Made by a program: the position numbers and the translations under genes. A model generated the notes under the pieces. It searched no databases, was not told the DNA's origin, and worked only from the letters and a program-made list of their open reading frames with translations. From Microbacterium invictum (lineage in GTDB: Bacteria; Actinomycetota; Actinomycetes; Actinomycetales; Microbacteriaceae), in contig NZ_JACIFH010000001.1 in NCBI RefSeq assembly GCF_014197265.1, positions 1,302,001 to 1,366,000 of the forward strand: a stretch of DNA of 64,000 nucleotides. The letters run 5' to 3'. Below are positions 40,552-45,523 of the stretch, piece after piece (within the stretch, counting starts at the first letter, position 1; every line of letters starts with the position of its first letter).

Positions 40552-41994
<1,443 letters not shown>

Positions 41995-42015
41995 GCCCGG
42001 CGGGCCCGCGCGGGT

Positions 42016-42071
42016 TCATCCGGCCCGACCTGCCCCCATCCCGCCGCATGGCGACACGTCGCGACAGACGA
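42016..42071. repeat. 56-nt element, copy A (divergent)
   Basis: TCATCCGGCC at the left end, GCGAC at positions 46-50, and CAGACGA at the right end where other copies have CGGATGA. It is 84 bp before copy B. The length is exactly 56 nt. Confidence 0.65.
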
Positions 42072-42099
42072 GTGTCGCCGCCCGGGACAGCCGCACCGT

Positions 42100-42155
42100 T
42101 CATCCGGCCGAAGTTGCCATTGGGTCGACCGATAGCGGCGCTCTGCGACGGATGA
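42100..42155. repeat. 56-nt element, copy B
   Basis: Left end TCATCCGGCC, right end GCGACGGATGA. The terminal 7 bases form the inverted repeat TCATCCG/CGGATGA. The centre differs from copies C and D. Confidence 0.8.
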
Positions 42156-42325
42156 GCGGGGTGGGTGGCTCGGAGAGGTCACAGACGGATGCCGGGATAC
42201 GGCGCCCGGCGTGGGCGACGCACCCGCATCCGCCGCCTCCTCCACATCCGATGATGATCGCGAAGCTGTCCACAGACGCCGAGCGCGGAGGCGACGCCGG
42301 CTCTGGGGCGGGCATGCTCACAGGC

Positions 42326-43366
42326 ATGGCCCGCAGACCTCGACCACTCCCGGACGCTCTGGGTGACGCCTTCTCGGTGGAGCAGGCGCGAGTCGCAGGG
42401 GTCAGCTCGGGACGGCTTCGCGGCTCCGATCTGCTCCGCCCGTTCCGCGGCACGAGGATGCGTCCGATCTGCGTCGACGACGACACGTCGGACGACGATG
42501 TGAGCCCGATGATGCGGGAAGCCAACGCCTTGCAGGCTGAGATCGGGCGTCGTGCACAGGCTCTCGCGACGGTCGCACCGCCGGCCTGGGTGTTCACCCA
42601 TGCCACCGCGGCCGTGCTGTGGGGGCTGCCGATGCCCCTCCACCTGCTGAGACTCGTGCTCGACGGTGAGCCGCGGGCAGCGATTCCACCCCGGGGCCTC
42701 GATATCGCCACCCTCGATGCGCGTCGAGCGCCGCGAGGCTCGGGCATGTGCGGCCATCAGCTGAAGTCCACGATGGTCTCCGTACGGTCCCGCCATGGTT
42801 TGCGCGTGGCCGACCCCGCCGGAGTGTGGGCACAACTCGCGCCGCTGCTCACCATCGATGAGCTGATCGCGATCGGCGACGCAATCGTGCACATCCCGCG
42901 CCGCCGCGGCATGAAGCGCGGTACGAGTCGCGACGCGCTGGGGACGCCGGCGGAGCTCGCTGCCGCCCTCGTCGCCGGACGCCGCGAGGGCATAGGGAAG
43001 CTGCGGGAAGCACTCCCCCGGATAAGAGTCGGCAGTGCGTCACCGGGCGAGACGCGGATCCGTCTCGCGGTCGTACGTGCAGGGCTTCCCGAGCCCGACC
43101 TGGATGTCGACGTGGTCGCCGCGGACGGCACCCCGATCGGATACACCGAGCTGGCCTACCCGCGCTGGCGCCTGCTGGTGGAGTACGAGGGCGACCATCA
43201 CCGCGTGAGCCGGGCACAGTGGAATCGCGACATCGAAAAGCACGCGGCGTGTGCGGCCGAAGGACTGACGGTGATTCGTCTGACCTCGGCACATGCGTAT
43301 CCGAGCACAGGGCCGGCCGTGCGCCGCATTCGTGATGCACTTCAGCGCGCCGGCTGGCATCCGTGA
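42326..43366 (+). CDS. AbiEi-like protein with C-terminal DUF559/Vsr-type nuclease-like domain
   Basis: A 346-residue protein. The N-terminus (FSVEQARVAGVSSGRLRGSD, LLRPFRGTRM) is the winged-helix opening seen in AbiEi-like antitoxin proteins. VFTHATAAVLWGLPMPLHLL is the second AbiEi-like motif. Residues ~280-340 match DUF559: RLLVEYEGDHHRVSRAQWNR, KHAACAAEGLTVIRLTSAHA. That places Glu-Tyr-Glu and a Trp-x-Arg-Asp in the family positions of a PD-(D/E)XK/Vsr-like fold. No abiEii toxin gene is next to it. The start is uncertain (ATG 42326 or 42314), and ATG 42152 lies in repeat copy B. Function unknown. The gene is bracketed by four 56-nt elements and sits between argH and a DUF418-like gene. 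Confidence 0.72.
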   Translation: MARRPRPLPDALGDAFSVEQARVAGVSSGRLRGSDLLRPFRGTRMRPICVDDDTSDDDVSPMMREANALQAEIGRRAQALATVAPPAWVFTHATAAVLWGLPMPLHLLRLVLDGEPRAAIPPRGLDIATLDARRAPRGSGMCGHQLKSTMVSVRSRHGLRVADPAGVWAQLAPLLTIDELIAIGDAIVHIPRRRGMKRGTSRDALGTPAELAAALVAGRREGIGKLREALPRIRVGSASPGETRIRLAVVRAGLPEPDLDVDVVAADGTPIGYTELAYPRWRLLVEYEGDHHRVSRAQWNRDIEKHAACAAEGLTVIRLTSAHAYPSTGPAVRRIRDALQRAGWHP

Positions 43367-43389
43367 GACCCGGGTCGTCGCGGCACCCG

Positions 43390-43445
43390 TCATCCGGCCG
43401 GAACTGCCGCCGACCGGGCCGGTGACGACAAGACGCGACGGATGA
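43390..43445. repeat. 56-nt element, copy C
   Basis: TCATCCGGCCGGAACTGCCG at the left end and GACGACAAGACGCGACGGA-TGA at the right. It is nearly the same as copy D, and differs from it only in the centre (positions ~23-33). Confidence 0.9.
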
Positions 43446-43472
43446 ACCGCCGCCGCTCGCCGGCGGCATCCC

Positions 43473-43528
43473 TCATCCGGCCGGAACTGCCGCCACCGGG
43501 CGCCGTGACGACAAGACGCGACGGATGA
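43473..43528. repeat. 56-nt element, copy D
   Basis: The same orientation and length as copy C, 83 bp downstream of it, with the same first 22 and last 24 bases. A GC-rich 27-nt stretch lies between them. Confidence 0.9.
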
Positions 43529-43544
43529 ACCCAGCCCAGAGGGG

Positions 43545-44603
43545 TCAGCGCGGCGCGACGATGCGGCATACCCAGGCGGTCAGGCGCTCGAGCGGGCCGC
43601 GGCCGAGCAGCAGCGCCCACGCGGTGCACGCGATCAGGGTGACGATCGTGAAGGGCCAGAACGGCTCCAGCGCACGGAAGCCGGGCAGGTCGCCGGTGTC
43701 GCCGAGGATGATCGCCGCCATCACGGCCCAGACCACGAGCTGGCCGACGTAGGCGGTGAACGGCATGGAGCCGACGGCGCGCAATGGCAGTGCCACCCAG
43801 GTGAGGGGCGTGCGGCACAGCAGCAGGCACGCCCCGATGGTGGCGAGCGCGAAGCCGCCCGAGCCGATCACCTCGAGCAGTCCGCCGGTGTGCGGTCCGC
43901 TCGCCCAGACCTCGGCGAGATAGGTGTCCGGGGGCGCCGCGAACGTGGCATCCATCGCCATCGCCAGCACCGCCGCACCGGCACCGGACAGCAGCAGCCC
44001 CCGCGAGGTGGCACTGCGCCGCAGGTCCGACCGGCCGGCGGCGAGCCCGGCGACCAGGAAGGCAACCCACAGCGTGAAGGGATAGTGCCAGCCCAGCACC
44101 AGCGACAGGGAGCCGCCGGTCGCGCCCTCCCACACCGGCAGTGCGTTCAGCAGCGGCTGGACCCACGGCATGACGAGCGCGAGCACGGCGGCGATGATCC
44201 AGAGTGTGCGCGCACGCAGCTGCACGAGCGGCAGGGCGAGCAAGAAGAGCACCCCGTAGGCGGGCAGGATGACGTACACCGGCACTCCGGTCGCGATCAG
44301 CGCGATGCCGAACAGCCAGAGCATCGCGGCGCGCACCGCGATGCGGCGCCGTGCCAGGCCGAGGGCGGACCTGCCCAGCGGGCGCGGGCCACCGGTGATC
44401 AGGGCGATCGACACGCCCGCGAGCACCGCGAACAGGATCGACGAGCGCCCGTTGGCCAGGTCGATCCACGTGAGCGGGTCGGCCGCGACGAACTCCGGGG
44501 TGACCAGCAGATGCGCGCCGAACATGCCCAGCACCGCGAGTCCGCGAGCCAGGTCCACGCCCTGCAGCCGGCCGGGGCCGTTCAGGGCGCGCGCGAACGT
44601 CAC
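43545..44603 (-). CDS. DUF418/HGSNAT-like multi-pass membrane protein
   Basis: A 352-residue membrane protein with about ten spans. The N-terminal LQGVDLARGLAVLGMFGAHL is the conserved motif of heparan-alpha-glucosaminide N-acetyltransferase-like proteins. IDLANGRSSILFAVLAGVSI and, near the C-terminus, GSMPFTAYVGQLVVWAVMA match the DUF418 family. Such proteins are thought to acetylate a cell-surface substrate across the membrane, but the substrate is unknown. GTG 44603 overlaps the argF stop, so it is probably the last gene of argCJBDF. No link to arginine is known. Confidence 0.8.
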   Translation of the reverse strand: MTFARALNGPGRLQGVDLARGLAVLGMFGAHLLVTPEFVAADPLTWIDLANGRSSILFAVLAGVSIALITGGPRPLGRSALGLARRRIAVRAAMLWLFGIALIATGVPVYVILPAYGVLFLLALPLVQLRARTLWIIAAVLALVMPWVQPLLNALPVWEGATGGSLSLVLGWHYPFTLWVAFLVAGLAAGRSDLRRSATSRGLLLSGAGAAVLAMAMDATFAAPPDTYLAEVWASGPHTGGLLEVIGSGGFALATIGACLLLCRTPLTWVALPLRAVGSMPFTAYVGQLVVWAVMAAIILGDTGDLPGFRALEPFWPFTIVTLIACTAWALLLGRGPLERLTAWVCRIVAPR

Positions 44604-45523
44604 TGCTGACGCAGCAGCCACACCAGCAGGGCCTTCTGGGCGTGGAGCCGGTTCTCCGCCTCGTCCCAGACGACGCTCTGCGGCCCGTCGATCACCTCGG
44701 CGTCGACCTCATAGCCGCGGTCGGCGGGCAGACAGTGGATGAAGATCGCATCGTCCTGGGCCTGCGCCATGATCTCGGTGGTGACCTTGTAGCCGCCGAG
44801 GTCGCGGAGGCGCGTGGCCTTCTCCTCCTCCTTGCCCATCGACACCCACGTGTCGGTCACCACGACGTCCGCCCCGGCTGCCGCCTCGTTCGGGTCGGTG
44901 TAGAGCGTCACCGAGCCGCCGGTGGTCTGGCCGATCGTGTCGGCGTCGGCGATCACGTCCTCGCGCGGCGCATACGCCTCGGGGGACGCGACGCGCACGT
45001 GCATGCCGGCGGTGACGCAGGCCAGCACGTAGGAGTGGCCCATGTTGCACCGGCCGTCGCCGAAGAAAGCAAGGGTGAGGCCCTTCAGATCGCCCTTGTG
45101 CTCACGGATGGTGAGCAGATCGGCCAGCAGCTGACACGGGTGGAAGTCGTCGCTGAGCGCATTGATCACGGGGACCGTGGTCCCCGCTGCCATCTGCTCG
45201 AGGCCCGCCTGCGCATACGTACGCCACACGATCGCGGCGACCTGGCGCTCGAGCACCCGCGCCGTGTCGGCGGGGGTCTCCTTGCCGCCGAGCTGGCTGT
45301 TCGCGGTGGAGATGATCAGCGGCGACCCACCCAGGTCGGCGATGCCGACGGCGAACGAGACCCGGGTGCGGGTCGAGGACTTGTCGAAGATGACCGCCAC
45401 CGTCTGCGGACCCTCGAGGGGCTTGAGCTTCCAGCGGTCCTTCTTCAATGAGAGGGCGAGATCGAGGATCTCATCCTGCTCGGCGGTGCTCAGGTCGTCG
45501 TCGCGGAGCAGATGGCGGGTCAT
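44600..45523 (-). CDS. argF: ornithine carbamoyltransferase
   Basis: A 307-residue enzyme making citrulline from ornithine and carbamoyl phosphate. DKSSTRTRVSFAVGIADLGG binds carbamoyl phosphate, DFHPCQLLADLLTIREHKG is the central motif, and FIHCLPADRGYEVDAEVIDG holds the ornithine-binding Cys. Full length. It overlaps argD by four bases (ATGA) and is the fifth gene of the argCJBDF unit. Confidence 0.95.
   Translation of the reverse strand: MTRHLLRDDDLSTAEQDEILDLALSLKKDRWKLKPLEGPQTVAVIFDKSSTRTRVSFAVGIADLGGSPLIISTANSQLGGKETPADTARVLERQVAAIVWRTYAQAGLEQMAAGTTVPVINALSDDFHPCQLLADLLTIREHKGDLKGLTLAFFGDGRCNMGHSYVLACVTAGMHVRVASPEAYAPREDVIADADTIGQTTGGSVTLYTDPNEAAAGADVVVTDTWVSMGKEEEKATRLRDLGGYKVTTEIMAQAQDDAIFIHCLPADRGYEVDAEVIDGPQSVVWDEAENRLHAQKALLVWLLRQQ

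Follow-up and report, generated by a model that had tools for sequence, protein, structure and literature searches.

To our knowledge, the bacterial palindromic repeats that come with a dedicated enzyme are those of REP/RAYT and its kin. The parts of two papers considered here describe REP/REPIN–RAYT systems as intergenic palindromes that occur in singlets and doublets and bracket the gene of their enzyme; the pairing of gene and repeat is family-specific, and decay leaves orphan repeats (PMC3733652, PMC3116915). AbiEi binds two 23-bp inverted repeats that lie 3 bp apart and span 49 bp, and the sites of Rv2827c, with a gap of 13 bp within pairs and 4 bp between pairs, span 59 bp (both from part of PMC7319586). 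According to the portion of a review used here, I-Bth0305I, an EDxHD enzyme, forms a dimer on a target site of nearly 60 bp (PMC3943268). Here, we describe a locus of Microbacterium invictum in which a nuclease-like gene is bracketed by palindromic elements, and we compare it with these systems.

Elements and gene at the argH site

The window, by which we mean the whole 64,000-nucleotide stretch of M. invictum DNA that was analysed, carries the following features at this site.

40552..41982, minus strand: argH (the name is that of the earlier note), left border of the site
42016..42071, plus strand: element A, 56-bp dyad with a degenerate right end (two mismatches)
42100..42155, plus strand: element B, 56-bp dyad with exact ends
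42326..43366, plus strand: nuclease-like gene (346 aa), AbiEi-like N-terminal region (family-level match) and C-terminal EDxHD/Vsr-like domain (MTES_1575/DUF559 family)
43390..43445, plus strand: element C, 56-bp dyad with exact ends
43473..43528, plus strand: element D, 56-bp dyad with exact ends
43545..44621, minus strand: membrane-protein gene, presumably DUF418-like, right border; it adjoins argH in relatives without the insert

The four 56-nt elements claimed in an earlier note on this DNA, made from the sequence alone, are all present where it placed them. Each of the four begins with TCATCCGGCC, and B, C, and D end with GCGACGGATGA; element A instead ends with CAGACGA, which is CGGATGA with two mismatches. 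The start-to-start distance is 84 bp from A to B and 83 bp from C to D. Within the window, the pattern TCATCCG-N36..50-CGGATGA has three matches, against 0.01 expected from dinucleotide shuffles. The elements do share one orientation, as had been pointed out, but this means little for elements that are near-palindromic. We took ATG 42326 as the start of the gene because the family alignment begins there; a longer open reading frame from 42152 would overlap element B.

Bracketing of homologous genes

A first scan of relatives yielded 29 loci. At L047 (Microbacterium sp. 70-16), one of the two closest, the gene is flanked on either side by TCATCCG elements of 57 bp. With a palindrome scan that was blind to sequence, other homologs were found to be bracketed by palindromes of different sequence. 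For example, a locus in Agromyces (L071) has the layout of the window: a pair of 56-bp elements stands on each side of the gene, the spacing within a pair is 83 bp, and the ends are of the type AGACCCGTCAAG. At E 1e-12 or better, homologs occur in 59 of 119 genomes of the order (our own genome included). All 114 matches outside the own genome were fetched from this search and, with three further homologs (paralogs) in the own genome, the 29 first-scan loci, and the window, they make up a set of 147 loci, no two of whose genes are identical.

A gene was counted as bracketed when two palindromes of 44–65 bp with matching ends lay no more than 600 bp from it. By this measure 76 of the 147 genes are bracketed, 67 of them on both sides, while among neighbouring genes in the same loci, counted as predicted ORFs, the figure is 1 of 117, and none on both sides. 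Distal windows gave 4 of 267 and shuffled flanks 0 of 147. The link between gene and palindrome proposed from the single locus is supported for the gene family, and the association is real and wider than was supposed. We rejected a chance origin of the elements on the excess in the window, this neighbouring-gene control, and the empty reversed control in the genome search described below. The order set contributes 56 bracketed genes out of 114, the first scan 18 out of 29, and the own genome two out of four; at least one is present in 40 of the 58 order genomes other than our own. They occur in 12 of the 13 families that have homologs, some of these families being represented by one or two loci. 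At the threshold used, 71 of the 147 genes have no pair. Some of these are misses, since inspection by eye shows an element at L220 and five tandem downstream copies at L048. Element sequence is private to each locus.

Several loci are of interest in their own right. Nine elements surround one gene at L105 (genome G075), three before and six after it, in steps of ~105 and 94–96 bp. Three loci of genome G136 (L032, L041, and L046) have shorter palindromes of 46–47 bp with the same ends, TCATCCGTCACG..CGTGACGGATGA, and at L041 these form two pairs, 63 and 62 bp apart, or about six helical turns. The homolog at L063 lies on a 6.4-kb contig labelled Stenotrophomonas maltophilia P13 and groups inside Microbacterium, so contamination is likely.

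The placement of the elements bears on one alternative, in which the protein is an AbiEi-like autorepressor, the upstream elements are its operator, and the copies behind the gene or dispersed in the genome serve as further sites for regulation or titration; the nuclease would act elsewhere, for example in defence, and would neither cut nor spread the elements. Of the 70 loci with an upstream element, 56 have it ending no more than 161 bp from the start codon, as would suit such an operator, and the promoters of AbiEi and Rv2827c contain paired 23-bp repeats that are bound by the proteins themselves (as given in part of PMC7319586). However, the downstream element is equally regular, starting within 96 bp of the stop codon in 62 of the 72 loci that have one. 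We consider it unlikely that the elements are operators alone.

The protein family

Of the 147 proteins, 136 passed a filter for clean ORFs of 250–400 aa, and 86 of these were picked by hand for the alignment, with Microbacteriaceae and bracketed loci favoured. D185, S239, E242, R246, and H292 (window numbering) are invariant in the 86 members and D302 nearly so. The EDxHD residues of the window protein are E242, E275, H292, and D302; position 275 is D in most homologs and E in the clade of the window. Matches at E <= 0.01 to MTES_1575 were found for 68 of the 86 members and to DUF559 for 41, whereas the window protein by itself lies below the Pfam cut-offs for both. The family profile matches PDB entries 3hrl (7.8e-6) and 3r3p (0.006); the latter is named "Mobile intron protein" and is, we assume, I-Bth0305I. 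From these motifs and matches, an EDxHD/Vsr-like catalytic domain is predicted for the family, and the protein is likely a DNA-binding nuclease.

The N-terminal part is conserved less than the nuclease domain (0.47 versus 0.66 in 15 pairs). The best of the PADLOC AbiEi models matches 26 of the 86 members and the others fewer, with a best E of 6e-11; Pfam AbiEi_4 matches one of 86, and none of the AbiEi models matches the window protein. No matches were found in PHROGs (three proteins tried) or NCBIfam (six proteins tried). The three own-genome paralogs are 43–46% identical to the window protein and have no TCATCCG element within 1.5 kb. Protein searches also returned three plasmid records and one phage record at 30–36% identity. 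Viral contigs gave eight stretches; none has the gene, and we judged them to be chance.

Dispersed copies

The own genome (3.58 Mb) was searched for TCATCCG-N30..56-CGGATGA, which permits total lengths of 44–70 bp. There are 27 matching places, every one exactly 56 bp long, and the reversed pattern has none in the whole genome. With length fixed and up to two end mismatches allowed, 49 places were found across the genome versus three in the reversed control, and four of the 22 extra places were accepted by eye (129175, 1836336, 1344016, which is element A, and 3500049). The own-genome family therefore comprises 31 copies, 27 with exact ends and four near copies, in 13 clusters when the argH site is counted as one; pairs or larger groups predominate. 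We fetched 11 clusters besides the argH site, leaving out the single copy at 129175. They lie between predicted ORFs, although two overlap the uncertain 5' end of one, and no homolog of the gene was found near the copies in these 11 stretches of ~10 kb. Many dispersed copies stand at gene 3' ends or between convergent genes, which argues against a purely operator role. In both arms, positions 1–7, 9, 17, and mostly 20 are conserved and the others vary, as counted over 28 of the 31 copies with three near-identical ones left out. The drift in the centres of A and B that had been singled out is present, but it is general among the own-genome copies. To the right of one element pair (L022; G000:C1:1727643-1727782) there are several tandem fragments ending GCGAAGCGACGGATGAAC, which look as if the right ends of elements had been repeated alone.

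Other genomes also have dispersed copies. Cognate elements, with those beside the gene included, number 20 in Microbacterium SZ1 (49-bp core), 12 in Microbacterium 1.5R (49 bp), and 8 in M. fluvii (50 bp), in a search that permitted 44–60. Outside the family, genomes G161, G179, and G226 have five, nine, and four cognate copies, all with 48-bp cores, where 40–54 was permitted. The cognate element is thus present in 4–20 copies in six other genomes, with one core length per genome. The L221 family of the own genome has local copies alone, at three places in the genome; in Leucobacter (L055), two copies are confined to the gene flanks, and G149 has two matches to its cognate pattern. Three of the eight genomes in the search that permitted 44–60 have no matches, and the pattern may not fit them. 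Dispersal of cognate elements is frequent, not general. Across 149 genomes of the genus, a loose element pattern matches in 111, versus three in the reversed control, and most of these matches vary in length and resemble chance hits in coding sequence. A tighter pattern matched in nine of 15 genomes that were searched again, and by eye we judged the elements to be real in G137, G080, G079, G050, G133, and, at 46–47 bp, G136.

Intergenic palindromes in singlets and doublets recall the layout of REPs (compare the part of PMC3733652 considered here), and the elements could in principle be REPs moved by a Y1 (HUH) transposase whose gene lies elsewhere, with the nuclease gene a bystander. That reading is largely refuted, and we hold it to be exceedingly improbable. 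Y1_Tnp (PF01797) has no match in the own genome while five of 14 control genomes match, which rules out RAYT/REP proper; the brackets stand round this gene family, not round neighbouring genes; and the elements measure 44–65 bp, against 20–40 bp for REPs in the sections of the literature considered. The comparison with RAYT/REP drawn in the earlier note is apt as an analogy, but in a genome with no Y1 transposase the system is not RAYT/REP itself.

Geometry, symmetry, and folding

Tandem elements on one side of a gene are spaced near 63, 73, 84, 94, and 105 bp, with R 0.79 at a period of 10.5 bp (p ~5e-8, n=27 loci). This test keeps one spacing per locus; of 56 same-side spacings, seven outside 55–130 bp were dropped (40 three times, 139, 205, 733, and 1027). 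Spacings of 142 and 141 in the own genome match no whole number of helical turns. In the dispersed Microbacterium families, both arms are conserved at the same positions, and the arms do not covary. The counts of interior pairs are 237 of 504 in the own family versus 254.7 after shuffling, 199 of 280 versus 201.8 in SZ1, 122 of 168 versus 116.7 in 1.5R, and 63 of 120 versus 66.5 in M. fluvii. Since helical register is combined with symmetric conservation in the absence of covariation, the elements appear to be duplex sites for a symmetric (dyadic) protein. Register and dyad symmetry would also fit the sites of a cooperative repressor, in favour of the operator-only alternative.

The lack of covariation between the arms speaks against hairpin maintenance in the dispersed Microbacterium families. 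In addition, shuffled sequences fold as well as the window elements do (z -0.92 to +0.40), so the suggestion that they form a folded RNA or DNA was not borne out. Many elements follow gene ends, and some families have hairpins, as would be expected of transcription terminators or structured RNAs that are common at gene ends by convergence. We nevertheless consider such an origin very improbable: besides the folding result, an Rfam search of 41900-43650 gave no match at E <= 1, and the fixed length, the locus-specific sequence, the upstream partners, and the near-absence of brackets round neighbouring genes do not suit it. The picture is different in other families: L138 and L178 each have one element that forms a perfect hairpin stem. 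Upstream and downstream elements paired across 69 loci show 60 double complementary changes versus 7.3 expected, a count from elements chosen partly for palindromy. Covariation is weak in G161, G179, and G226 when these three families are mixed in one pool (170 of 234 interior pairs versus 155.4, reached by nine of 5000 shuffles), and we give this mixed set no weight. The near-perfect hairpins and paired upstream and downstream changes in some other families would fit a hairpin substrate there.

History of the argH site and turnover of the elements

Across the genus, argH and the membrane-protein gene are adjacent. Our survey of the site drew on 30 loci from best matches and 20 regions chosen by the gap seen, and is not random; 45 of 49 argH-site loci gave both borders, from 42 genomes. 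The gap between the two genes is 0–99 bp in 28 genomes, 171–523 bp in nine, and 1303–1772 bp in five, proportions that should not be read as frequencies. The five genomes with a long gap all hold the gene, four with TCATCCG elements of 56–57 bp and the fifth, G011 (apparently M. aoyamense), with elements of another sequence. Two elements surround a remnant of the gene in G080, G383 has a remnant without elements, and in G137 the site is empty and elements persist. Such orphan copies, where the gene is absent or a remnant, count against elements that are solely operators.

The seven Microbacterium genes from the argH site that were placed in the tree group as a single clade with support of 100, so that one old insertion is enough. 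We read the site as one old insertion that was probably followed by loss, decay, and element turnover, and the recent mobility of the unit that had been suggested for this locus is not upheld. Two further kinds of sequence were seen at the site. In L253 and L254 (G317 and G079), the gene matches the window protein over residues 1–322 alone and its last part differs; the frame continues to a stop after 354 residues, and the gene end may be altered. The intergenic stretches of L236, L242, L245, and L250 (190–277 bp) contain, by eye, a longer palindrome of the GTGCCGAACTCCGGA..TCCGGAGTTCGGCAC type, and these palindromes are perhaps orphans of another family.

The presence of empty, occupied, and decayed states at one site, the patchy distribution of the gene in the order (59 of 119 genomes, as above), and a nuclease domain like that of EDxHD homing endonucleases could all suggest a selfish unit of gene and elements that cuts sites bearing elements and then inserts a copy of itself there. 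We find this improbable. Apart from the single clade at argH, other homologs also occupy syntenic sites common to different species, which speaks for vertical descent, and the own genome has no second gene of the TCATCCG type, its three other homologs being as distant as noted above.

Likeness among elements tracks likeness among proteins (Mantel r 0.33, 0 of 2000 permutations, 71 loci). At orthologous sites, an element resembles the one on the other side of its own gene (0.86) more than its counterpart at the other locus (0.62) in 15 of 16 pairs; the p value of 0.0006 for this test is optimistic, as loci recur among the 16 pairs. These sequence comparisons indicate that the elements diverge along with the protein and that they are replaced on both flanks while the gene itself keeps its place. 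The earlier note had expected its proposal to fail if elements lay at random with no link to such genes, or if relatives had the gene without any element. Half of this is seen: own-genome copies lie away from such genes in 11 stretches, and M. aoyamense has another element sequence at the same site. In our view, these observations weigh less than brackets that are conserved and co-diverge across 12 of the 13 families with homologs.

Proposed mechanism

We favour, with modest confidence, a one-gene, element-bracketed nuclease system as the explanation of the locus and the family. The protein would consist of an AbiEi-type DNA-binding part joined to an EDxHD/Vsr-like nuclease domain and would recognise its own ~56-bp dyad elements in duplex form. 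Each element would probably be occupied by two protomers, one on each arm with its outer and inner box, and adjacent elements held on one face of the helix would allow the complexes to contact each other. The elements before the gene are probably also its operator. If elements were nicked or cut and then repaired by recombination, the two sides would stay alike while their common sequence drifted with the protein; tandem arrays and occasional REP-like copies in other intergenic regions would also result, and orphan copies would outlive the gene.

The steps of this model differ in strength. Given the link between gene and palindrome, a nuclease that recognises the elements, one of the possibilities first raised for this locus, is the best reading, and we think it probable that the protein binds them. 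On whether it cuts them our judgement is evenly divided, and that it spreads them is possible but somewhat doubtful. Bracketing, locus-specific sequence, dispersal in several genomes, fixed length, and helical register are shown, as are dyad conservation without covariation (in the Microbacterium families), co-divergence, two-sided turnover, and empty and remnant-bearing sites. Several points count against such a system: the 71 homologs with no pair, the families whose elements are not dispersed, the empty argH site of G137 with its persisting elements, and the hairpins of some other families. Moreover, the catalytic D is E in the clade of the window, and an active nuclease with many chromosomal sites would need restraint.

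More broadly, we tentatively propose an undescribed class of self-bracketing nucleases in Actinomycetota, in which each AbiEi–EDxHD protein would read a private dyad family as duplex DNA in helical register and keep it homogeneous and spreading by cutting and repair. Such a class would parallel REP/RAYT independently, with a hydrolytic nuclease as its basis and a specificity that changes rapidly and jointly on the two flanks of the gene. Our literature search found no description of the gene–repeat association in titles or the starts of abstracts, most subscription papers and all preprints being outside its scope. The bracketing of many relatives of the gene, each by elements of its own sequence, points to an undescribed gene-and-repeat system. 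If true, this would be a second, unrelated type of enzyme with the REP/RAYT architecture, which would make the origin and spread of short palindromes testable. It would also suggest a role for many actinobacterial proteins that are now named "DUF559 domain" or hypothetical, and would provide numerous nucleases naturally paired with long target sites that diverge, in which the evolution of specificity in DNA recognition could be followed.

Comparison with known systems

Part of the family (up to 26 of 86 members) has an N-terminal region that resembles, by profile match, AbiEi of the AbiE type IV toxin–antitoxin systems, and the paired inverted half-sites are of similar span. Two pairs of Rv2827c sites would lie 63 bp from centre to centre, a distance that we computed from the portion of the source considered and that equals the smallest spacing class here. 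Unlike AbiE operators, the system described here has a nuclease domain fused to the protein, and its sites also stand behind the gene and round the genome; the neighbours of the window gene are argH and the membrane-protein gene. The likeness to I-Bth0305I lies in the E-D-H-D pattern, the profile match to 3r3p, and a dimer target that is nearly 60 bp in the review excerpt used here. In contrast to EDxHD homing endonucleases, no intron was seen between the window gene and its neighbours, the gene does not interrupt its own target but has intact elements on both sides, and inheritance at the argH site is vertical. The system resembles both AbiE operators and EDxHD targets and corresponds in full to the definition of neither.

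The likeness to REPtrons goes further in layout: the palindromes are intergenic and occur singly or as doublets, the enzyme gene is dedicated and bracketed, the repeats are gene-specific, and there are orphan repeats. Dispersed extragenic palindromes that are cognate to a bracketed gene belong to this likeness as well, although not for the L221 family of the own genome or for L055. The differences concern the elements, which are 44–65 bp long, stand in direct tandem and in helical register, and in the dispersed Microbacterium families appear to behave as duplex dyads rather than hairpins, and the enzyme, which is an EDxHD/Vsr-like nuclease with an AbiEi-like part instead of a Y1 HUH transposase. 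The system works like REP/RAYT, but with a different enzyme in the place of the one by which REP/RAYT is defined.
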